Source of the DNA: a virus
IMG/VR virus record: IMGVR_UViG_3300006754_000166
Coordinates: 1 to 24,456 of that record
Strand: one strand, 5' to 3'
DNA: 24,456 nt
Of the stretch, positions 1 through 14,207 are shown in pieces. Both the position numbers and the translations under genes were made by a program. The notes beneath the pieces are model-generated. The model was not told where the DNA came from. It searched no databases and saw nothing but the letters and a program-made list of their open reading frames with translations. Each line of letters begins with the position of its first letter. The stretch's first letter is position 1.

Positions 1-100
1 CAATTTGACCATCTTTCTTTCTTGGTACATAATCATCTGTTACATTGGCTGTGTTCTTATAGGATAATATGGTACTGATTTGTTTTATTACACTACTCAT
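1..100 (-). CDS. Leftward gene, N-terminal part only (33 codons visible), unknown function
   Basis: On the minus strand an ATG (complement of 98-100) opens a frame without stops to the left window edge. The visible product starts MSSVIKQISTILSYKN and continues with a polar, charged stretch ending near RKKDGQI. A GAGG Shine-Dalgarno-like sequence (plus-strand complement at 108-111) lies about 7 nt upstream, which supports this start. An earlier ATG on the same strand (complement of 111-113) is in another frame and meets a stop after six codons. The gene is divergent from the rightward late operon, so it marks the edge of a separate transcription unit. No family can be recognised from 33 residues. 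The reading rests on the open frame and the ribosome site only, so a chance frame is possible. Confidence 0.5.
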   Translation of the reverse strand, partial: MSSVIKQISTILSYKNTANVTDDYVPRKKDGQI

Positions 101-150
101 TTGATAACCTCATTAGTTAGTATTATTGATTAACTCGGGTCACTTCATTG

Positions 151-249
151 CTTGCCGAGAGGCAAGAGAGGGGCGTTCTTAACAGGCAACCTTCAATTCT
201 CTGCTGGCACGGCACCCCTGCCCAGTAGAATTGGAGGGGGACTGTTGAG
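151..249 (+). ncRNA. Candidate structured RNA in the divergent intergenic region
   Basis: Two hairpins can be read directly. The first is a perfect 6-bp stem, CTTGCC (151-156) with GGCAAG (161-166), closed by a GAGA loop, which is a GNRA tetraloop on the plus strand. The second is a long nested stem: 178-185 pairs with 242-249, 190-200 with 227-237, and 204-209 with 219-225 (one bulged C), leaving a C-rich loop at 210-218. Two positions (180/247 and 193/234) are G-U wobbles in plus-strand RNA but would be A-C mismatches in minus-strand RNA. Together with the GNRA loop this favours a rightward RNA. The class is not recognised. It could be a free small RNA, an mRNA leader or a packaging-site structure. 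No clear promoter or terminator frames it. Confidence 0.35.
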
Positions 250-366
250 TGAGTTTCCCACACACCCATTCTACAGCAAGTTTTCAAGAATCCACATTAT
301 TTTTTTTAATTGATTTCTAAGAAGCAGTACACGTAAATTCCTCTATGGATATAGCGACACTTAGTT

Positions 367-395
367 ATACTACTCTCCTATTTAATATACATCAA
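367..395 (-). promoter_or_regulatory. Candidate sigma70-type promoter for the leftward gene
   Basis: Read on the minus strand, TTGATG (complement of 390-395) is followed after 17 bases by TAGTAT (complement of 367-372). Each hexamer matches four of six consensus positions and the spacing is optimal. It would drive the gene that starts at 100, giving a leader of about 260 nt that runs antisense through the folded segment at 151-249. The region is A/T-rich, so chance matches are expected. Confidence 0.25.
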
Positions 396-406
396 GTCTT
401 AGTGGC

Positions 407-426
407 TACTCTAAGAGTACTCTAAG
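407..426. repeat. Tandem 9-bp direct repeat with embedded palindrome, possible operator
   Basis: TACTCTAAG occurs at 407-415 and again at 418-426, an 11-bp period close to one DNA helical turn. The palindrome AGAGTACTCT (414-423) spans the junction. The repeats sit just upstream of an A/T palindrome and between the two divergent gene starts, where a regulator of both directions could bind. No regulator family is implied. Confidence 0.35.
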
Positions 427-429
427 TAG

Positions 430-450
430 TATATATATAATATATATATA
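430..450. repeat. 21-bp A/T palindrome between divergent genes
   Basis: An alternating TA tract forms a perfect palindrome around the central A at 440. It contains TATAAT at 436-441, which could serve as a rightward -10 element, but no good -35 hexamer lies 16-18 bp upstream. The tract could also be an easily melted site or a protein-binding site. Confidence 0.4.
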
Positions 451-530
451 GCGTGGGTAGTAAATACGATACAATAAAGTCTGATTTAGTCTTTCCTAAG
501 TGGTCTGGAGAGGTTAGTGTAGACAGTTTA

Positions 531-536
531 AGGAGG
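531..536 (+). promoter_or_regulatory. Strong Shine-Dalgarno site of the first rightward gene
   Basis: AGGAGG is a full match to the anti-Shine-Dalgarno core and lies 10 nt before the ATG at 547. It fixes the endolysin start and marks the beginning of the rightward operon. Confidence 0.7.
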
Positions 537-546
537 AAGCTAACAA

Positions 547-954
547 ATGCCGAAGTTCGGAAAAAGAAGCAGAGAAGCCCTAAAAAGTTGCGACAATAGG
601 TTACAGGCAGTATTCAATGAAGTTATCAAAACAGTGGATTGCTCTGTACTTGAGGGTCATAGGGGTCAAGCTCGCCAAGACAAGTTTTATGAAGAAGGTA
701 AGAGCAAGGTTAAATATCCCGATGGACGTCATAATAGACTCCCCTCTCGTGCTATCGATTGTGTTCCTTATCCTATTGATTGGAATGATAGGGAAAGGTT
801 TACACTATTTGCTGGGTTCGTATTAGGGATAGCGACAAAGCTTGATATATACTTACGTTGGGGAGGAGATTGGGATAGAGATTGGTATGTACACGACAAC
901 AAATTTGATGATTTCCCTCATTTTGAGCTCTTAGATGTACCAGGTAACGATTAA
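547..954 (+). CDS. Endolysin, M15-family peptidoglycan peptidase (L-alanyl-D-glutamate or D-Ala-D-Ala peptidase type)
   Basis: This is a 135-residue single-domain protein of the zinc peptidase family M15, used by phages to cut peptide bonds in peptidoglycan at lysis. Visible hallmarks are EGHRGQARQ (36-44), H62 and D71 in the H-x8-D first zinc-binding segment, the following VPYPIDW, a WGGDWD segment (105-110) and D122-x-x-H125 before FEL. In the T5 endolysin the equivalent residues are His and Asp zinc ligands, a third His ligand and a catalytic Asp. There is no signal peptide or membrane segment, so it needs a holin to reach the wall. A strong AGGAGG (531-536) lies 10 nt before the ATG. The last 20 bases overlap the next gene. 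Unusually, this lysis gene is first in the packaging operon, far from the candidate holins at 12.5 and 14.2 kb. The exact bond cut is not certain. Confidence 0.87.
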   Translation: MPKFGKRSREALKSCDNRLQAVFNEVIKTVDCSVLEGHRGQARQDKFYEEGKSKVKYPDGRHNRLPSRAIDCVPYPIDWNDRERFTLFAGFVLGIATKLDIYLRWGGDWDRDWYVHDNKFDDFPHFELLDVPGND

Positions 955-1726
955 ACACAGAGATAAGGGTACAAGGTCATACAATATATTTACAGAGAGA
1001 GAAGCAAAAGAAGAGGGTATCGAGTACAAGTATTGGAAGGACGCTGATATTGGCGAATACGCTCTCAGCGATGACAAATATGTCGCCCTCGTCCTTCAAA
1101 AGAAAACTTATGAAGCGAATAACGGTCTTAGTAATACATACATTCGTCTACCTTTTGGTTATGCCTTTCATAATCCTAAGTATCCTGGTAAAAAGTTTAA
1201 TGCAGAGGGTAGAAAATCGCATCACACATTATCTGGAAAACCGCAATTAGAGGTTAGAAAGGGCTCCACTAAGTGGAAAAACCTTGCTGTAGCCTATTCT
1301 ACTACTTTTCAGTATGATATTGCAATAGATCTTGTATTTGATTCAACAACCCCATCGGAAAGAAGGACGTATAAACGATGGATGAAGACACAGGAGTTTA
1401 AAAGTATGGTAAGAGATGAGCTAAAAGGACTACTAAAGGAGAAGGGTTACGGGGAATCTGACGTAATAGACCTCTTGACAGAAGCACAAGGTATGGCAAA
1501 GGAGAAAAAGGATCTTACTAACTTCATACGTGTTATAGAAAATATACAGGATATGCTTGGAATGAAGGATAAAACAGTAATAAGGACCACAGACACTCTC
1601 CAAGCAACCCAAACAAAGCGTCTTTTAGATGAAATAGCTGAAGAAGAGCAGCATCTTATAGGGCAAAGAGAGACAGTAGAGGTAAAAACCTTGGGTCCTG
1701 ACGATCCAGGTGATGAAGATGGCTGA
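935..1726 (+). CDS. Putative terminase small subunit
   Basis: This 263-residue protein is encoded immediately before the large terminase, the usual place of TerS, which recognises viral DNA and hands it to the motor. The N-terminal 150 residues look mixed alpha/beta and match nothing I can name. From about residue 150 the protein is helical and charged. The segment around 185-215 (AKEKKDLTNFIRVIENIQ, then LGM) resembles the helical region often seen in small terminases ending in a short Gly-hydrophobic motif. The C-terminus is acidic (GPDDPGDEDG). The start overlaps the endolysin end by 20 bases and the end overlaps the TerL start. The role rests mainly on position and helix pattern, since no DNA-binding HTH is obvious. 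A different packaging or structural role cannot be excluded. Confidence 0.5.
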   Translation: MYQVTIKHRDKGTRSYNIFTEREAKEEGIEYKYWKDADIGEYALSDDKYVALVLQKKTYEANNGLSNTYIRLPFGYAFHNPKYPGKKFNAEGRKSHHTLSGKPQLEVRKGSTKWKNLAVAYSTTFQYDIAIDLVFDSTTPSERRTYKRWMKTQEFKSMVRDELKGLLKEKGYGESDVIDLLTEAQGMAKEKKDLTNFIRVIENIQDMLGMKDKTVIRTTDTLQATQTKRLLDEIAEEEQHLIGQRETVEVKTLGPDDPGDEDG

Positions 1727-3215
1727 AGATTATGAGGCATTGTACGAAAGGAAGAAAGCTCTTGCTAAATTACAGAAATCTATAGCTTTATTTGGTAGAT
1801 ACTGCTTTCCTACTGCTTTACGCAAGTCTACACCCCCTTTTCACCATCAAATATACAGATCAATACGTGACCAGAAGTTAAAACGCGTACTTATAGCTGC
1901 TCCCAGGGGTACAGCTAAGTCCACTGTCATCTCTTTATTGCTTCCTTTACACCGTATAGCCTTTAAAAGAGAGGACCAAGAGGAGTTTATTGTCATAATC
2001 TCCGAATCTCAGGCACAATCTATCAATTTCTTGTCAAGGATAAAGTATCATCTGTCGTTCTCGGAGCGATTTAAGGCTCTTTTTGGTGATATGAGCTCTC
2101 AAACTGCTCAAAAGTGGACAAATTCCGATATTATTACTTCAAATGGGACAAGAGTAGTAGCAGTTGGTACTGGTCAGAGGGTTCGTGGGTTTATTGAGGG
2201 CGATACTCGTCCAACTTTGATCATTGTTGATGATTTTGAGTCAGAATTGAATGCTTTTACTGATGAAGCAAGGGCAAAGAACAGAAAATGGATGACAGAA
2301 GCTGTTATTCCTTCATTAGCTGATGATGGTAGGATAATTATGATAGGAACAGTTATATCTGAGGACTGTTTCCTATACTGGGCTAAGGAGTCTACGGCCT
2401 GGAAAGTGCTGTGGTATAGTATAATTGACGATGATGGCGAAAGTATTTGGGAAGAAAGGTTCCCACAATCAAGGATAAATGCTATAAAGGCAGAATACTC
2501 TTCTGTTGGGAATATAAATGGGTTTTATCAGGAATATATGAACATAGCTCAGTCACCCGATGAAGCCCCCTTTCAGCCCAAATGGATCAAAATGCACCAT
2601 TATGACTTCAAAAGAATAGAGGGACAGCCCTGTTTAGTTAGAAATGTTGGTGATGAAGAGAAAATAATACCTATTGAGACGTATGGAGGCGTAGATCCTG
2701 CTTCTTCTTTATCGGCTAAAGCTGACTTTTTTGTTGCTATTACCATAGGAATCGACCATGAAGGGAACAAATATATTGTTGATTTGTTTAGAAAGAGGAT
2801 ATCTCCAGCTGAGCAGCCTGATGTAATCATAGATATATGGAAAAAATACAAACATAAGAAGATGAAGATAGAAACTGTTGCATACCAGGAAGCATTACGT
2901 GCAGCAGTAAAGAAAAGAATGCTGGAAGAGAACATATATATCCCAGGATTAGAGAAGGGAGTAAAGCCAAGAACAAGGAAATCAGAGAGATTGCTGTCAT
3001 TAGTACCTATGTTTGCTAAGGGTGAGTTCTTTTTTAGGCCCCAAGACACAGAAGCACAGGCAGAATTTCTTTCTTACCCCAAAGGAAAGCACGATGATGT
3101 GATGGATGCGTTATGGACTTCTCTCGAAGGAGCAAGGCCTTGTAGGATTAAAAGTTTAGACCCAGATGAAAAAGTGTCTAAATATCAGAAAGTTCTTGAT
3201 TGGATGACATTATAA
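1719..3215 (+). CDS. terL: Terminase large subunit (ATPase-nuclease packaging motor)
   Basis: The product is about 498 residues, normal for TerL. Numbered from the upstream GTG at 1710, it shows a Walker A-type loop APRGTAKST (64-72), Walker B LIIVDDFES (170-178) and an IGT coupling motif (212-214). The C-terminal RNase H-like nuclease has an acidic residue in GGVDPASS (D329), a second candidate in KIETV (E388) and the KGKHDDVMDAL segment (D462, D463, D466). It powers DNA entry through the portal and cuts concatemeric DNA. Three starts are possible: GTG 1710, ATG 1713 and ATG 1719. ATG 1719 has an AGG at 1708-1710 with 8-nt spacing and is preferred. It overlaps the preceding gene by 8 bases. 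The family is certain, but the packaging strategy (cos, pac or terminal repeat) cannot be told from the protein alone. Confidence 0.95.
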   Translation: MAEDYEALYERKKALAKLQKSIALFGRYCFPTALRKSTPPFHHQIYRSIRDQKLKRVLIAAPRGTAKSTVISLLLPLHRIAFKREDQEEFIVIISESQAQSINFLSRIKYHLSFSERFKALFGDMSSQTAQKWTNSDIITSNGTRVVAVGTGQRVRGFIEGDTRPTLIIVDDFESELNAFTDEARAKNRKWMTEAVIPSLADDGRIIMIGTVISEDCFLYWAKESTAWKVLWYSIIDDDGESIWEERFPQSRINAIKAEYSSVGNINGFYQEYMNIAQSPDEAPFQPKWIKMHHYDFKRIEGQPCLVRNVGDEEKIIPIETYGGVDPASSLSAKADFFVAITIGIDHEGNKYIVDLFRKRISPAEQPDVIIDIWKKYKHKKMKIETVAYQEALRAAVKKRMLEENIYIPGLEKGVKPRTRKSERLLSLVPMFAKGEFFFRPQDTEAQAEFLSYPKGKHDDVMDALWTSLEGARPCRIKSLDPDEKVSKYQKVLDWMTL

Positions 3216-3264: not shown

Positions 3265-5679
3265 TTGGCAGTTTATGACGCTCCTTTAGAGGGAGCACAA
3301 GAAGAAAATCTTAATCCTGACGACCTTGATGCAGGAAAAGGCGAATCTGGTTCAATAGAAGAAGAAACCCGTCGCCTCTTTGATCTTTATAAGAACAAGA
3401 GGTATGATTGGGAGGTTCAAGCCAGGGAAGACCAGGAGTATCGATTAGGCCGTCAATGGACGATAGAACAGGAAAAGAGCCTAAAATCAAGAGGGCAGGC
3501 TCCGATTGTTGTTAATAGAATCCATCCAGCTGTAGAAACAGCAAAAGCACTCCTTACTTCTAACAGACCTTCGTTTAAGGTTTCCCCAAGGGAAGATTCA
3601 GATACAAGAGTAGCGAATGTATTAAATGCTCTACTCACTTATATGTATGATATCTCCGACGGAAGGACTGAAGTACGTAAAGCGGTTGATGATTACTATG
3701 TAGCAGGACTTGGATATCTATTAGTTTATCAAGATGGACAGGCTGATGGCGGTAAAGGGGAAGTAAAGTTTCGTTCAGTAGATCCTTTCGATGTATACGT
3801 TGATCCTAACTCAAGAGACAGATTCTTTGAAGATGCAGAAAATATTATTGTATCACGTATTTTTACTAAAGCACAGGCTAAAAAGTTATATCCATTATAT
3901 GCAAATGCTATTGATTCAGCTTCTGGTGGGGAATATACTACTGATCAGATTGTAACAGGCAATACTGATAATACAGCAATAAAGTTCCCTGGAGATGAGA
4001 ATACATTCGAATCAGATACTTATGTCAGAGGTTATGAAAGATACTATAAAATTCGTGAAATAGCATATCGGGTCCATGAAAAGTATTCAGGTAAAGAATT
4101 AAGACTTAACCAAGAGGAGTATCAACAATACCTTGAAACGGAAGTTGGTGTACTTGGAGAAGGGGCACAGACTCAGGTATTTGAGGGCGAACAGATAGAA
4201 GCAAAGAAAGGACAAGTTGCACAGCAAAGAGACCAGGTACTTAAACAAACAGCAGATCAAATAGACGGTGGTATCGAGAAACAAGCGTCAGAGCTTGAGG
4301 TGCAGTATATTGAAAAAGAGAAAGAACTCAATGAGTTGTTGGAACTGGGTGAAATAGTCCCAGACAGGGCAGAGCTTGAACTTAGTAATTTAAGAGAGCA
4401 GATTGACAAACAAGTACAAGATGCTTATAATCAAGCCCTTGAGAGTGCAGGCCAGGTATCGGAGATACCTACTGTAAAAATGGCAGTTAAGGCTGGACTC
4501 ATAAAGCTTGGTTTAATAGAAGCAATCCCCGTAACAATAACTAAAGTTAAGATGTGTGTTGTAATTGGCGAGACTTATGTGTTTGGAAGAGTACTTCCAT
4601 CATCAACGTTCCCGATAGTCCCAATATGTAATTTACATACTCGTACTCCATATCCAATGTCAGATGTGCGTATGGTAAAAGGACTACAGGACTATATTAA
4701 CAAAACTCGTTCACTTATTATAGCACATGCAACTACTTCAACCAACATGAAGGTTATGATCCCAGCTGGTTCAGTCGATATGGCTGAATTCGAGCAGAAA
4801 TGGGCACAGCCTGGTGTAGGTATTGAGGTAGATTTTGATATGGGGCAGCCTGTCGTAGCCAGTCCAGTACCTCTACCCAATGAACTCTACCAAAACGAGC
4901 AAACAGCCAAAAGCGACATCGACCACCAACTTGGACTCTACGAAATGATGATGGGAAATTCCCAAGCTGCCCCACAAACTTACAAAGCAACTATTAGCCT
5001 GGATGAGTTCGGACAGAGAAAGATTAAGTCTAAACTTGCTGATATTGAAGCTGGGTTACAGATCCTTGCTAAGGTTGCAATCCCAATGATGCAAGAATTA
5101 TATCAAATGGATAAGGTATTTAGAGTTGTTAATCCAAATAACTCTATGAGTGAATACGCTATAAATAAGCGTTTATATGACGATAAAACAAAAGAGATAC
5201 AAGTTTTTAATGATATTACTGTTGGAGCCTATGATGTTGTATATGTTTCAGGTTCGACACTTCCGTCTAATAGATATGCGGAACTCGAATTCTACATGGA
5301 AGCATACAAAGCTGGGCTCATTGATAAACAGGAAGTTTTGAAGAAGACAGAGGTCTTCGACATGGAAGGAGTACTTCAAAGAACCGATGTTATTGCTCAA
5401 TTACAGCAACAACTCAAGTCAGCGACTGAGCAACTTAAGAAATTAAGTGGCGATATGCAGACGCTCACACGTGAGAATGTACACTTGAAGCAAAAAGTAG
5501 AGGTTGAGAAGTTCAAGACTCAACTCGATTCAGTAGAAAACAAAGCGAAAGCTGCGGGAACACTGTTCGACAAGAGATTGGGCGATCAACTATCATTGGT
5601 TGAAAAAGAAGTACGGGATGCAGCAAAAGAAGCCAGCAAACCTCCATCCGCATCTAATGGAGCTGCTAAAAGGAAATAA
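3265..5679 (+). CDS. Portal protein (P22-like, large)
   Basis: This 804-residue protein follows terL directly and has the features of the large portal family of short-tailed phages. They include an acidic N-terminus, a WEVQAREDQEYRLGRQW segment, an APIVVNRIHPAVET motif near residue 80, and RSVDPFDVYVDP (near 170). Portals form a dodecameric ring at one vertex, dock the terminase and serve as the DNA channel. Residues of about 280-405 are a Gln/Glu-rich helical stretch of predicted coiled coil interrupting the portal core, which resumes near VPICNLHTRTPYPMSD. The C-terminal 100 residues are another long coiled coil ending in basic AAKRK, which could form the barrel seen above P22-type portals. 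Translation starts at TTG with AGAGG 6 nt upstream. The next gene begins 3 bases after the stop. Confidence 0.88.
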   Translation: MAVYDAPLEGAQEENLNPDDLDAGKGESGSIEEETRRLFDLYKNKRYDWEVQAREDQEYRLGRQWTIEQEKSLKSRGQAPIVVNRIHPAVETAKALLTSNRPSFKVSPREDSDTRVANVLNALLTYMYDISDGRTEVRKAVDDYYVAGLGYLLVYQDGQADGGKGEVKFRSVDPFDVYVDPNSRDRFFEDAENIIVSRIFTKAQAKKLYPLYANAIDSASGGEYTTDQIVTGNTDNTAIKFPGDENTFESDTYVRGYERYYKIREIAYRVHEKYSGKELRLNQEEYQQYLETEVGVLGEGAQTQVFEGEQIEAKKGQVAQQRDQVLKQTADQIDGGIEKQASELEVQYIEKEKELNELLELGEIVPDRAELELSNLREQIDKQVQDAYNQALESAGQVSEIPTVKMAVKAGLIKLGLIEAIPVTITKVKMCVVIGETYVFGRVLPSSTFPIVPICNLHTRTPYPMSDVRMVKGLQDYINKTRSLIIAHATTSTNMKVMIPAGSVDMAEFEQKWAQPGVGIEVDFDMGQPVVASPVPLPNELYQNEQTAKSDIDHQLGLYEMMMGNSQAAPQTYKATISLDEFGQRKIKSKLADIEAGLQILAKVAIPMMQELYQMDKVFRVVNPNNSMSEYAINKRLYDDKTKEIQVFNDITVGAYDVVYVSGSTLPSNRYAELEFYMEAYKAGLIDKQEVLKKTEVFDMEGVLQRTDVIAQLQQQLKSATEQLKKLSGDMQTLTRENVHLKQKVEVEKFKTQLDSVENKAKAAGTLFDKRLGDQLSLVEKEVRDAAKEASKPPSASNGAAKRK

Positions 5680-5682
5680 AAA

Positions 5683-6666
5683 ATGGAAGCTAATAGCCAA
5701 CAGGTTGAACCACAACAAGAAGCCCCCCAACAGGAAGTTACTCAGGATGTCCCAAGCTTTGAAGCTGCGATAGACAAAGAAATAGCTGAACCTCAAGGGG
5801 CTACCTTCGAAGAGATAATAGGGGTTACCGAGCAGGAACCAGGTCAAGTACCTGTACCTTCTGAGGTCGCACCCCAAGGTAATGATCAGGTTAGGTATCA
5901 ATACTGGCAGTCAGAGGCTGCCAAGCTCCAGAATCAATTAGCTGAAAGAGATGAGATTCTGAAGCAGCAAACTCCTGTGATAGAGTATGTTACCCAAAAT
6001 CCACAAGTACTTAACGGAAGTGCTCCACCTCCTCAAGCTGGTCAGCCAGTGCAAGAGGCTAAGAAGGAAGAGGAATTTCCTCCTCCACCTCAAAAGCCCC
6101 AACCACCAGCTGGATACAGTAGAGAGGATGCGTATCAGGATGCAACAAGTGATAGTGCGAAGTATGATTCACAGGTAGAGCAATGGAGAGATGATATGCA
6201 GACATATAATCAGCTCCACACATCCTACCAGGTAGCTACTATGCAGGAGACTCACGATAAGGAGATCTCAGAACTTAGGAAGTATGAGCAAATGAGACAG
6301 CAAGATGCGAGACAACGATCAGAGCTTGACAACGCCACAAGATATGTTAAATCCAGGTATGATCTTGGAGGAGACCATAATCTTAATAGGTTTGTCAATG
6401 AAATGAATGATCCTAATTCAATTAACATGGATGATTTAGTAGGTTATTGGAAACATAAGAACGGGATAGTGGACTCAGGTCCAATGCCAGTTCAGAATTC
6501 GCCCCAACAATCACAGCCAAGTCAGACATTTCAACAATTGAAAAGAGGTCAATCAGTTCCAACTCCGATGGGTGTTCAAACGTCTGCTGGTAATCAGGCA
6601 GCTGATCCTTCTAATAATTTCATGGCATCTCTTATCAATGAGGAGAAACGTAGTAATTTACTATAA
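5683..6666 (+). CDS. Scaffold-like head assembly protein
   Basis: This 327-residue protein lies between portal and major capsid genes, the standard place of the scaffolding protein that guides procapsid assembly and is then released. The composition fits. An acidic, Gln/Glu/Pro-rich N-terminus (about 1-65) is followed by a helical segment with WQSEAAKLQNQLAERDEIL (about 75-93), a proline-rich linker (about 125-146, with PPPPQKPQPP) and a long helical region to about 225. A final part is rich in Gln, Ser and Pro. There is no enzymatic motif. An AGGA (5671-5674) lies 8 nt before the ATG. The assignment comes from position and composition because scaffolds diverge too much for reliable motif reading. 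Confidence 0.65.
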   Translation: MEANSQQVEPQQEAPQQEVTQDVPSFEAAIDKEIAEPQGATFEEIIGVTEQEPGQVPVPSEVAPQGNDQVRYQYWQSEAAKLQNQLAERDEILKQQTPVIEYVTQNPQVLNGSAPPPQAGQPVQEAKKEEEFPPPPQKPQPPAGYSREDAYQDATSDSAKYDSQVEQWRDDMQTYNQLHTSYQVATMQETHDKEISELRKYEQMRQQDARQRSELDNATRYVKSRYDLGGDHNLNRFVNEMNDPNSINMDDLVGYWKHKNGIVDSGPMPVQNSPQQSQPSQTFQQLKRGQSVPTPMGVQTSAGNQAADPSNNFMASLINEEKRSNLL

Positions 6667-6688: not shown

Positions 6689-8185
6689 ATGGCAACATAT
6701 ACAGGTACTGGTCAGTATAATGTTACTACTACTCCAAATAGTCCTGGTTGGACAGGGCAGAGTATTGATAGTCTTAGACGAACTTTTGGAATCGGCGATA
6801 CGGTTCATGAATTAGCTCCAGAGACATCAATTTTCTTTAGCTATTTGAGTAAGTTAGGTAAGAAACCTACTGACGAGACAGTTTGGAAACCGATGGAATA
6901 TCGGTCTCAATGGCAACGTCGCAATTTTGAAGCGAAGGTAGCTAAAATCACAGGCGGGGATGATGCCCAAATAACAGGCATTGCTGACCCAACTGGTTCA
7001 GATGCTACTCACTTTATGCTATATTGTGACTACAATCATCAGGGGAAACAGGTAAAATCAACTGTTCAACCCGATGCGTCTTCTTATATAGGGTATGCTC
7101 CTATTTATATAACTAAGAATCAAGTTCTTAGAATAAATGGAATATCTTATAAAATAACCGCAGAACCCGACTATTTCACATATTCTTCTGGTAGTGTTGG
7201 CGACGTGTCAACTAAAGCCGCTGCTGGTGTAGCATACGGATATATTACCATCCCTATCGCGAATATGATAGTTGTTTCAACAGGCTCCGCATTTGCTCAG
7301 CCTGCTTCTGGTGGATGGGATGAAAAAGGTCAGGTTATCGGATCTCAATGGGGTGAAGCTACAGGTGCTCCTGAGGGCTGGAGAGATGAATTGAGTGATG
7401 TGGAATTTTTCACACAGATATTCAAGACATCTGTTCCTTTGATGAGTGGATCTATGCAGGCTACCAGGTATCGTGGCTATGCAAATGAGTGGAAACGTAT
7501 CTATGGAGAGCATGTCAAGTCCCATAAAATGGATCTTGAAAATGCTTTCTTATTTGGCTATGGTAAATATACCAGTGCTGACGTAAGAAACTCCTGGGGT
7601 ATCGAACCGTTCATCCGAAACAAGGGTGGTAAGAAGTATGAATTAGCATATAATGGTACTGCTGCTGACTCAGCAGGGTATGATGTTAGTGCTGGTTTTT
7701 CTTACGACGGAATGATTGACGTCATGGATGACTTTATGAATTATGAAGGCGGAAACAGTGGTCAAAAACTGTGTCTAACTTCACGTAAGGTTATCAATGC
7801 ATTACATAAAGTTGGAAGTGGAAACTTTCTACAGAACTCGTTTGATGCGACTACAAGTCAAATCTTTCAAGCTTCTTTGGAAGTTAAATCTTCGAGCTTC
7901 ATGCCTATTGACATCACGTCTATATCTACATCATGGGGATCTATGAATTTCATAGCTCATCCATTGTTTAGACATGACATGGAAGATACGGCAGTATGCG
8001 TTGATTTAAGCCATGTGACAATGCGGCCACTTGCTGGAAACGGGCATTCACGGGATACATTCGTAGAAACGAATATTCAAGACAATGATATCGACGGAAG
8101 AAAGGACCAGATTGTTACTGAAGCTGGTCTTGAGGTACTCTTCCCAGAGACTCATGCTGTTGTAGACTTCGTAGCTGGCGGATAA
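6689..8185 (+). CDS. Major capsid protein
   Basis: This 498-residue protein follows portal and scaffold genes and is expected to form the icosahedral shell. The N-terminal part has an ELAPETSIFFSYLSKLGK segment (about 42-59) followed by a W- and Q-rich stretch (VWKPMEYRSQWQRRNFE). This pattern resembles the HK97-fold capsid proteins of phages such as SU10. The C-terminal part has TSTSWGSMNFIAHPLFRHDM (about 413-432), typical of the late beta-rich region of capsid proteins. TGAGG (6677-6681) lies 7 nt before the ATG. The gene is followed by a strong GC hairpin at 8198-8222, consistent with higher expression or message stability for this most abundant protein. No delta domain or protease gene is evident. 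The role is well supported by synteny, but the exact family is an inference. Confidence 0.82.
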   Translation: MATYTGTGQYNVTTTPNSPGWTGQSIDSLRRTFGIGDTVHELAPETSIFFSYLSKLGKKPTDETVWKPMEYRSQWQRRNFEAKVAKITGGDDAQITGIADPTGSDATHFMLYCDYNHQGKQVKSTVQPDASSYIGYAPIYITKNQVLRINGISYKITAEPDYFTYSSGSVGDVSTKAAAGVAYGYITIPIANMIVVSTGSAFAQPASGGWDEKGQVIGSQWGEATGAPEGWRDELSDVEFFTQIFKTSVPLMSGSMQATRYRGYANEWKRIYGEHVKSHKMDLENAFLFGYGKYTSADVRNSWGIEPFIRNKGGKKYELAYNGTAADSAGYDVSAGFSYDGMIDVMDDFMNYEGGNSGQKLCLTSRKVINALHKVGSGNFLQNSFDATTSQIFQASLEVKSSSFMPIDITSISTSWGSMNFIAHPLFRHDMEDTAVCVDLSHVTMRPLAGNGHSRDTFVETNIQDNDIDGRKDQIVTEAGLEVLFPETHAVVDFVAGG

Positions 8186-8197
8186 TCAAAAATCTGA

Positions 8198-8222
8198 GAG
8201 GGGGCTCTTTATGGGCCCCCTT
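8198..8222 (+). terminator. GC-rich hairpin after the capsid gene, terminator or message-stabilising element
   Basis: Positions 8200-8207 (GGGGGCTC) pair with 8213-8220 (GGGCCCCC) around a 5-nt TTTAT loop, with one G-U pair. An outer A-T pair (8199/8221) and a G-U pair (8198/8222) extend the stem to 10 bp. It begins 13 nt after the capsid stop. Only two T residues follow, so it is not a classical strong terminator. Partial termination or protection of the capsid mRNA 3' end is more likely. Confidence 0.6.
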
Positions 8223-8230
8223 AACGAACA

Positions 8231-8887
8231 ATGACAATAGCCACACACATACTTGCGAAGCTCTTCCCAGATCCTAACAACAAGGAAACGTTTGTTAGCG
8301 ATCTAACTAACGAGGTTGCCCTTGTAAATCAATCCCTTTGGGAGGTTGCCAATATGCTTCCTGTCAAAGATCTTATTAAGGTCGCTCAAGACCCAAGAGA
8401 AGGTGGAGATGCTGGTACTTCGATTGGTGTAGATGAAAAAGTTCTTCTTGTTTTAAGAGATGATATAGCATGCAAGGAGATAAGCGTTGAAGATGCTTTC
8501 AGAGCAAAGGATAGTGCTAGTATCCACTATGCAACTGCTCGTTCTCCTGTATTTTGGATTACAAAGCACCCAACAGAAGCTTACCCTTTTGTTTATGGGT
8601 TCCCTACTGGATGGACAAAGTTGAATATATTTACCTACAGGAAGGAAACTCTTAGTGATCTCTCTGGAACTGCCTTTGCATATATACCTCCTACAGCTTA
8701 TGAGGCAGTATATTTAATGTCAGCTATGAAGATTATGCAGCAGAAGCTATCTTATATGGCTAATGATGAAGAAGATGCTGAATTATATCAGATATTTCAG
8801 GGTAATTTACAGCAGATAGAATTAGCCTTAAAAGACTCAATGAAACTCCTTTCGCCTAGAGAAGGGCATCAGGAGAGAGAAAAATGA
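8231..8887 (+). CDS. Head-tail connector or tail-tube-like structural protein
   Basis: This 218-residue protein is encoded right after the major capsid protein. Residues of about 110-150 are beta-type (SPVFWITKHPTEAYPFVYGF). The C-terminal 60 residues form long helices beginning IPPTAYEAVYLMSAMKIMQQ and running to LKDSMKLLSP. This helical tail with a leading PP is reminiscent of connector and tubular-tail-A-like proteins of short-tailed phages. It probably sits at the portal vertex or in the neck. The start lacks a good Shine-Dalgarno sequence: the 20 nt upstream are mostly the 3' arm of the hairpin and TTAACGAACA. Initiation may therefore depend on the hairpin context. The stop overlaps the next start (ATGA). 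The role is inferred from order and general appearance. Confidence 0.5.
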   Translation: MTIATHILAKLFPDPNNKETFVSDLTNEVALVNQSLWEVANMLPVKDLIKVAQDPREGGDAGTSIGVDEKVLLVLRDDIACKEISVEDAFRAKDSASIHYATARSPVFWITKHPTEAYPFVYGFPTGWTKLNIFTYRKETLSDLSGTAFAYIPPTAYEAVYLMSAMKIMQQKLSYMANDEEDAELYQIFQGNLQQIELALKDSMKLLSPREGHQEREK

Positions 8888-12897: not shown

Positions 12898-13227
12898 GTG
12901 GATACTCCAGACTCAGACGGAATGTCAGTTTATGCTGATCTTGTCTGTGACCCTAATGCTGGAGATTTGCTTGATAACCTTGGCATAATAGGAAATAAAA
13001 CTTATCCCGATGGGGTCGATAACTGCGTTAATTGCGGTTACGAAAAGTTAGCGAATCTTGAGGTTCTTGGGGCACACAGTAAACCTCTTTTTTATATATG
13101 TAGGAAGTGCAGTCATTTGCATTTACGGTACACAAGACCGTATACTATGAAGTGTATATTAAAAGCTGAGTCACTCTATTCAGATCCAGAGTCTTGGGAT
13201 ATGCCAAAAAGAAAGGATTACGACTGA
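12898..13227 (+). CDS. Cys4 zinc-ribbon-like small protein, unknown function
   Basis: This 109-residue protein carries CVNCGY (C43, C46) and ICRKC (C68, C71), two CxxC knuckles 21 residues apart. That is the layout of a zinc ribbon as found in many small nucleic-acid-binding or structural proteins. Acidic residues dominate the N-terminus (DTPDSDGM, then VCDPNAGDLLDN) and the C-terminus is charged (DMPKRKDYD). The start is GTG 12898, two bases after the previous stop. ATG 12922 is an alternative that removes eight residues. The stop overlaps the metallophosphoesterase start (TGATG), so the two are probably translated together. Zinc binding is a reasonable reading, but the biological role is unknown. 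Confidence 0.62.
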   Translation: MDTPDSDGMSVYADLVCDPNAGDLLDNLGIIGNKTYPDGVDNCVNCGYEKLANLEVLGAHSKPLFYICRKCSHLHLRYTRPYTMKCILKAESLYSDPESWDMPKRKDYD

Positions 13228-14207
13228 TGGATAAAGCTGATTTAGAAGGCGATACCAGTCACGGTAAAAAAAATAGGATCTATGAAATAGTTGCACATTA
13301 CCTTGTACATGGTGATAAAGCAGCTGATATACTTGGTATAAAAACACAGACTCTTAGAAGGTATCTACGGAGAGCTAAAGCTCTCGGATTAGATGTAGAG
13401 AGAGGTAAGGTACTAAGTGATATAGAAGCTAACTATTCAAAAACAGAACTTTTAGCAATATCAAAAGGTGCTAGAATATTACCTGGACAACCTCCTACAC
13501 CAGTAGTAGAATTTAATGGAGAAAGAACTCGTATAGGAGTAATGGGTGATATACACTTTGGCAGTAAGTACTGTCTCTACCCATTGGTCAATAAAGCATT
13601 CAAAGAGTTTGAGAAGGAAAATGTTGATATAGTGTGCCAAGTTGGAGACTTAACAGAGGGAATGTCAAATAGGCCAGGACAGATCTATGAACTTTCCCAT
13701 TTAGGCTTTCATGAGCAAAAGAAGGTAGCTATTAAATATATGAAGAGATGTCCAAGGCCTCTTTATATGATAGACGGAAATCATGATAGGTGGTTCATAA
13801 AGTCTAACGGAGCTTTAATAGTGCCTGATGTCTGTGATGCTATTGACCATGCTACCTTTTTAGGGCATGATGAAGGTAATCTTGCTTTAGGTGACAATGC
13901 TACTGTTAGATTGTGGCACGGTGAAGACGGGTCCAGTTATGCAGTATCTTATAGGATCCAAAAAATAGTAGAATCATTAACAGGAGGTCAAAAGCCTAAC
14001 GTGATGTTTTTGGGGCATGTGCATAAAAGTACGTACCTTTATGATAGGCATATACACTGTTATAGTGCAGGTGCCTTTCAAAGGCAGACAGCTTGGATGC
14101 GAGGTAAAAGACTCTCATCACATACTGGCTTTTGGATAGTAGACATTTATGTAAACGAAACAGGCGTTAGTAAAACAACAGGAACATGGTACCCATTTTA
14201 TGCTTGA
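13227..14207 (+). CDS. Calcineurin-like metallophosphoesterase with N-terminal HTH
   Basis: This 326-residue protein contains all metal-binding motifs of the calcineurin-like phosphoesterase fold: GDIHFG (D108, H110), VGDLTEG (D141), DGNHDRW (N185, H186, D187), WHGEDG (H231) and GHVHKS (H264, H266). It should bind two metal ions and hydrolyse a phosphomono- or diester; the substrate is not evident. Residues of about 17-56 (YEIVAHYLVHGDKAADILGI, then TLRRYLRRAKALGL) look like a helix-turn-helix. This suggests contact with nucleic acid or packaging near DNA. The chosen start is ATG 13227, overlapping the previous stop, with AAGGA upstream. A TTG at 13194 would add 11 basic residues. Such enzymes appear in phage late regions, but their role there is unsettled. 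Confidence 0.85.
   Translation: MDKADLEGDTSHGKKNRIYEIVAHYLVHGDKAADILGIKTQTLRRYLRRAKALGLDVERGKVLSDIEANYSKTELLAISKGARILPGQPPTPVVEFNGERTRIGVMGDIHFGSKYCLYPLVNKAFKEFEKENVDIVCQVGDLTEGMSNRPGQIYELSHLGFHEQKKVAIKYMKRCPRPLYMIDGNHDRWFIKSNGALIVPDVCDAIDHATFLGHDEGNLALGDNATVRLWHGEDGSSYAVSYRIQKIVESLTGGQKPNVMFLGHVHKSTYLYDRHIHCYSAGAFQRQTAWMRGKRLSSHTGFWIVDIYVNETGVSKTTGTWYPFYA

Follow-up and report, generated by a model that had tools for sequence, protein, structure and literature searches.

A conserved plus-strand fold between the divergent operons of marine phages, a candidate transcription-control element of phages with a predicted giant two-barrel RNA polymerase

The structured RNAs that act on RNA polymerase include the HK022 put RNAs and the bacterial 6S RNA, the latter also a rod. 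The hairpin of an N4-type promoter consists of 5-7 bp with a 3-nt loop and resides in the template strand, just upstream of the start site. The early promoters of the N4 virion RNA polymerase require this template-strand hairpin (PMC4496689). The two-barrel virion RNA polymerase of the Thermus phage P23-45 uses a conserved AT-rich motif that precedes the pre-early genes (PMC10770324). For crAss-like two-barrel virion polymerases, the choice of the start site is poorly understood.

The element described here lies near the left end of a 24,456-nt stretch of viral DNA (IMG/VR record IMGVR_UViG_3300006754_000166, positions 1 to 24,456; hereafter, the window). Like the N4 promoters, it combines a hairpin and conserved bases before early genes with a giant putative virion polymerase, and the folded strand is the template for the leftward genes. 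Unlike the N4 promoters, it consists of a long variable rod plus a separate hairpin, P0, is present in one copy per genome and has only a putative promoter role; furthermore, the enzyme that recognizes the N4 hairpin promoters is T7-like, whereas the polymerase of the clade carrying the element is predicted to be of the two-barrel type. The P23-45 motif occurs in many copies, whereas here there is one site, to which a conserved fold is attached. In contrast to the HK022 put RNAs and 6S RNA, the element has no Rfam match, and its RNA form is putative. The coordinates of the features are given in Table 1.

Table 1. Features of the element and its surroundings in the window
Feature	Position	Strand	Remark
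Leftward (early-side) ORF start, cut by the window edge	1..101	-	SD AGGTTATCAA-ATG
P0 hairpin closed by GAGA	151..166	+	GNRA-type loop
AGGGG, unpaired motif between P0 and rod	169..173	+	over-represented in homologues
Rod, nested imperfect stem, ~25 pairs	178..249	+	
Rod outer stem	178-185:242-249	+	
Rod inner stem	190-200:227-237	+	
Rod apical stem	204-207:222-225	+	
Whole covariance-model match	175..283	+	69.7 bits
Linear conserved tail	250..283	+	34.6 bits in the window copy
Endolysin-like ORF, first long rightward gene	547..951	+	PHROG 465, E = 2.5e-35
Large terminase	1710..3212	+	used to fetch relatives
P22-type portal	3265-5679		
SU10-type major capsid protein	6689-8185		

The SU10-type capsid protein together with the P22-type portal places this phage among podovirus-like phages. 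The leftward ORF that is cut by the window edge encodes 153 aa in an overlapping contig (L002). In the relatives examined, as far as the contigs reach, the gene order is the same: the leftward short ORF, the element, small rightward ORFs, the conserved ORF, the large terminase and the portal. The element always separates the early operon, which runs leftward, from the rightward packaging operon; its place and orientation are fixed, so that its location between divergent phage operons, noticed in the initial annotation, is conserved in the relatives. In a 53-kb relative (G003), the leftward genes to the left of the element include those for a DnaB-like helicase-primase and a Sak4-like protein, and to the right, rightward genes extend for ~39 kb; from this gene content, we infer an early role for the leftward genes and a late one for the rightward genes. 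The early region in L088 contains, on the minus strand, ThiF/E1-like, JAB-like and 453-aa neighbours recognized by eye (3560-5069 and 5002-6363), possibly a ubiquitin-like module, with no family found in a scan of the 453-aa protein, as well as a spore-photoproduct-lyase-like radical SAM protein (7677-8537; Pfam SPL, E = 3e-23). The late operon of the window includes a metallophosphoesterase (Pfam; 13194-14207), the N-terminal region of which resembles a helix-turn-helix by eye.

A single site per genome with a T-rich flank would also suit a replication origin, in which the hairpin and an AT-rich stretch would expose the plus strand or support RNA-primed synthesis. In the profiled part of G003, the element coincides with the minimum of the cumulative GC skew and with its change of sign; this evidence is, however, confounded because gene direction changes at the same place, and no initiator protein or iterons were identified, so that we regard an origin as unlikely. 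The proximity of a single site to the terminase genes similarly brings to mind a DNA packaging site, cos or pac. This explanation appears highly improbable: the element is located from 0.5 to ~40 kb from the contig start in near-complete contigs and therefore marks no fixed genome ends, and conserved pairing inside a long rod is unexpected for cos or pac. A cos site specifically is rejected, given that near-complete contigs break at many distances and their ends do not cluster at the element.

The full conserved element spans approximately positions 151-290 and comprises P0 (CUUGCC-GAGA-GGCAAG, a perfect 6-bp hairpin), the single-stranded AGGGG, the rod and the linear tail, TGTATATCNCGNACNCNCATTCTA..TTTT. 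P0 and the nested stem of about 25 pairs were found exactly where the initial annotation had placed them (151-249), with one G-U pair in the plus strand of each of the three rod helices, the outer, the inner and the apical. The extent proposed there holds for the hairpins but omits the most conserved part of the element, the tail and the T-tract that follows it. Energy folding against shuffled controls, suggested as a check, favours the same strand: the plus strand of 140-260 folds at -52.7 kcal/mol (z = -3.54, none of 200 shuffles as good), compared with z = -0.96 for the minus strand (31 of 200 shuffles as good).

The large terminase gene retrieved 80 viral contigs, most of them sharing 69-81% protein identity, and further contigs came from two DNA-pattern scans with the conserved tail; in the contigs examined from these scans, the gene order is the same as in the terminase relatives. 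Upstream of the endolysin-like ORF, the relatives display the same architecture despite differing sequences. A first alignment, of 19 sequences, carried a structure of 22 pairs to which it had not been fitted. Both partners vary in 17 of these pairs; cells with such double changes number 58, against 32 in shuffles, and the covariation score is 0.316 compared with 0.183 for shuffled and at most 0.146 for slid controls. The covariance model (R1) identified 70 copies in related marine phage contigs, with E-values up to 0.36 but mostly far below 1e-5, and, wherever the terminase gene is present, with the same orientation relative to it. The realigned set, unlike the first alignment, was fitted to the structure; in it, both-side changes occur in 20 of 21 pairs, with 247 compensatory cells against 119 +/- 9 in shuffled and 35-71 in slid controls. 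The covariance search across related phages thus revealed compensatory changes in the stems, as the initial reading of the fold implied. The covariation of the rod is firm, and the element, in which compensatory changes exceed both the shuffled and the slid controls, is a structured nucleic-acid element.

It is present in nearly every member of a large marine phage group, in one copy per genome, which eliminates a repeated T7-like promoter; a search with PF00940 also gave no match, although its control matched nowhere either. Across the homologues, the sequence of the rod is free and its pairing is kept, apart from conserved internal motifs, UCAAC and CCGUGAAA. The AGGGG motif is found in 39 of the 59 non-redundant homologues, whereas shuffles give 6.9, and some homologues carry, before GGGG, a perfect hairpin of other sequence, such as GCTTATC-GAGA-GATAAGC in L132. 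In more distant phages, the length of the rod and its sub-helices differ; the rod of L126 pairs GUACCUGUCCG with CGGACGGGUAC, and in L278 small hairpins alone remain before the tail. Complementarity between AGGGG and CCCCT (215-219), both present in the window, had led to the proposal of a pseudoknot, which did not gain support: the presence of AGGGG is not significantly associated with apical CCCC (Fisher p = 0.25). An H-type pseudoknot, CCGU:ACGG, is rejected on inspection by eye because the pairing is broken in L031, L034, L035 and L050.

The tail forms the right-hand boundary block of the element, a signature of 34 bases followed by a T-tract, with the consensus TGTATATCACGTACTCCCATTCTAGAGTAATTTT (37.7 bits, built from 60 distinct tails) and nearly invariant positions 2, 5, 8, 19 and 21-23. 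The window tail, TGAGTTTC...CATTCTA, is among the more divergent forms; it scores 34.6 bits, and the next best site in the window -0.4. In the scanned genome stretches of the relatives, the tail site scores 42-51 bits and the next site at most 4.8; in G003, the values are 47.6 and, for the next best site anywhere, 4.8. A small tail hairpin, ACUC/GAGU, shows no covariation, and its pairing is unsupported.

The fold belongs to the plus strand. When folds were made without G-U pairing and single mismatches within helices were counted, 57 were of the plus type, stable or common on that strand (AG 20, AA 20, GT 17), against 20 of the complementary minus type (CT 4, TT 6, AC 10), with 52% expected (p = 1.3e-4, an optimistic value because the sequences are related). 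An earlier, smaller mismatch test also pointed to the plus strand, and the long helices likewise favour GU (44 against 20 expected) over AC (28 against 21). The mean fold z-scores, however, differ little between the strands. The strand specificity that the initial annotation had deduced is thus upheld by the purine-rich mismatches, in agreement with the folding of the window. These results are compatible with the folded RNA proposed there as far as the strand is concerned, but the signature specific to RNA is indistinct: G-U is not clearly enriched over A-C among the mismatches (GT 17 against AC 10, p = 0.12, again optimistic), and the model alignment (A2) contains 93 G-U against 86 A-C cells. 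The folded plus strand may therefore be either RNA or single-stranded DNA.

The strand also bears on the idea that the element is a regulatory 5' leader of the leftward early mRNA, the promoter of which would be the tail. The leftward start codon is located 140-220 nt downstream of the element (minus-strand ORFs start 143-221 nt from the tail ATTCT in homologues in which a good start was found), and the minus strand of the tail contains TAGAAT and TATACA. Nevertheless, both the 57 to 20 excess of plus-type mismatches (p = 1e-4, optimistic for the same reason) and the folding of the window favour the opposite strand, and TATACA is lost in the window copy, making such a leader quite unlikely.

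Another conceivable although rather unlikely explanation is a free-standing noncoding RNA of ~140-190 nt, transcribed rightward and ending at the T-tract, which would act in trans or target a polymerase, for instance as a 6S-like rod serving as a decoy for the RNA polymerase of the host or the phage. The long rod with conserved internal loops, the GNRA-type loop of P0, the purine-rich mismatches on the plus strand and the U-rich end after the tail are all in line with such an RNA, which, if trans-acting, would represent a new family of phage noncoding RNAs, strongly covarying and without known relatives. However, no significant promoter-like excess was found left of P0; no intrinsic terminator, that is, a GC-rich hairpin directly followed by a T run, was found in window positions 1-600; the tail hairpin is unsupported; neither a sigma70-type promoter nor a terminator could be matched to a plus-strand RNA; the preference for G-U over A-C is not clear; and a trans-acting RNA would have no need for a fixed position between divergent operons. 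As the initial annotation had surmised, the fold fits no class that can be named: none of the 4227 families of Rfam 15, including 6S RNA, phage pRNA, riboswitches and ribozymes, matched the window at the gathering threshold, a permissive scan of positions 1-600 gave chance matches outside the element only, and a scan of 17 homologous loci returned one tRNA elsewhere and nothing in the element. A tRNA gene lies near the element in one relative (L034:538-612, minus strand). A nucleotide search in annotated phages found nothing, and the two matches from a scan of a genome collection, both in cellular genomes and inside coding sequence, were dismissed as chance.

The last rightward gene of G003 (40281-49706; L090:281-9706) encodes a protein of 3141 aa without a Pfam or PHROG match, and homologues of this ~3,000-aa late protein are encoded in L151-L174 and L177-L256. 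Across 36 proteins, the GGADLDGD motif is invariant and the upstream RVPMDS.SGA..HP invariant or nearly so, a block that we take to resemble the NADFDGD region of beta-prime. An AlphaFold model of 1,080 residues, built from the 36-sequence alignment (pLDDT 86, pTM 0.82), has as its best PDB matches the virion RNA polymerase of the crAss-like phage phi14:2 (gp66, 6vr4; E = 8e-8) and QDE-1 (5e-6). The former is the nearest solved structural relative found, although very remote in sequence, with 9% identity over the alignment; a sequence-profile search against the PDB found no relative, and the relationship is revealed by the predicted fold alone. The core of the giant protein, with its DxDGD motif and double-psi barrel fold, is thus predicted to be a two-barrel RNA polymerase of the QDE-1/crAss gp66 type, apparently undescribed in these marine phages; from its size and late-operon position, it would be catalytically active and present in the virion.

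Among the 24 element-clade contigs, 23 contain the polymerase gene, and a profile-guided scan detected homologues encoded in 195 viral stretches. Among contigs fetched by the polymerase gene alone, the element is present in 23 of 40, including 19 of the 21 that are at least 43 kb long. For this very phage, the gene is presumed from its relatives because the window ends before it.

These phages are also predicted to encode a giant RNA polymerase of their own, so that the element may well be a switch that starts or steers viral transcription. One site in a fixed place, a plus-strand fold, a fixed tail and the company of a polymerase are together best fit by a cis-acting transcription element; we put at roughly 40% the probability that it is a single-copy transcription-control element at the early/late divide, serving the phage's own putative virion RNA polymerase. 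The polymerase, or a partner, would recognize the hairpin of the plus strand along with the tail, in the form of either extruded single-stranded DNA or nascent RNA, and this recognition would govern where early transcription begins or the switch from early to late genes. The leftward early genes use the plus strand as their template, so that a hairpin of this strand, lying ahead of their start, would have the geometry of the N4 virion-polymerase promoters. Against a cis-acting element, the polymerase and the element could occur together for no other reason than membership of a single clade; against a hairpin promoter, the rods are far longer than the N4 hairpins (~72 nt in the window, which, with the tail hairpin unsupported, does not conform to the short N4 type), and the conserved internal motifs of the rod look more like RNA. 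That the element represents a new promoter or regulatory class, in which a single-subunit virion polymerase of the QDE-1/crAss type recognizes one long folded single strand, of DNA or nascent RNA, and a linear tail, at one site per genome, to start or switch the entire transcription programme of an abundant group of marine phages, is doubtful. If it is a recognition site, the 59 natural variants would provide a substrate for testing promoter recognition by QDE-1-type polymerases, and the element would also be a marker for a widespread group of marine phages.

Around the element, sigma70 promoters show no significant overall excess. In one subgroup (L013, L020, L100, L101, L138 and others), TTGnnn-18-TATATT recurs ~70-180 nt to the right of the tail, where it may serve the late operon as a host sigma70 promoter. 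Downstream of the tail in L007-L035 lies a second stretch of conserved noncoding sequence, TTTTTTACAAATGCACTTTTCAACC ... GGTTAAGGTACC, which may hold another structure.
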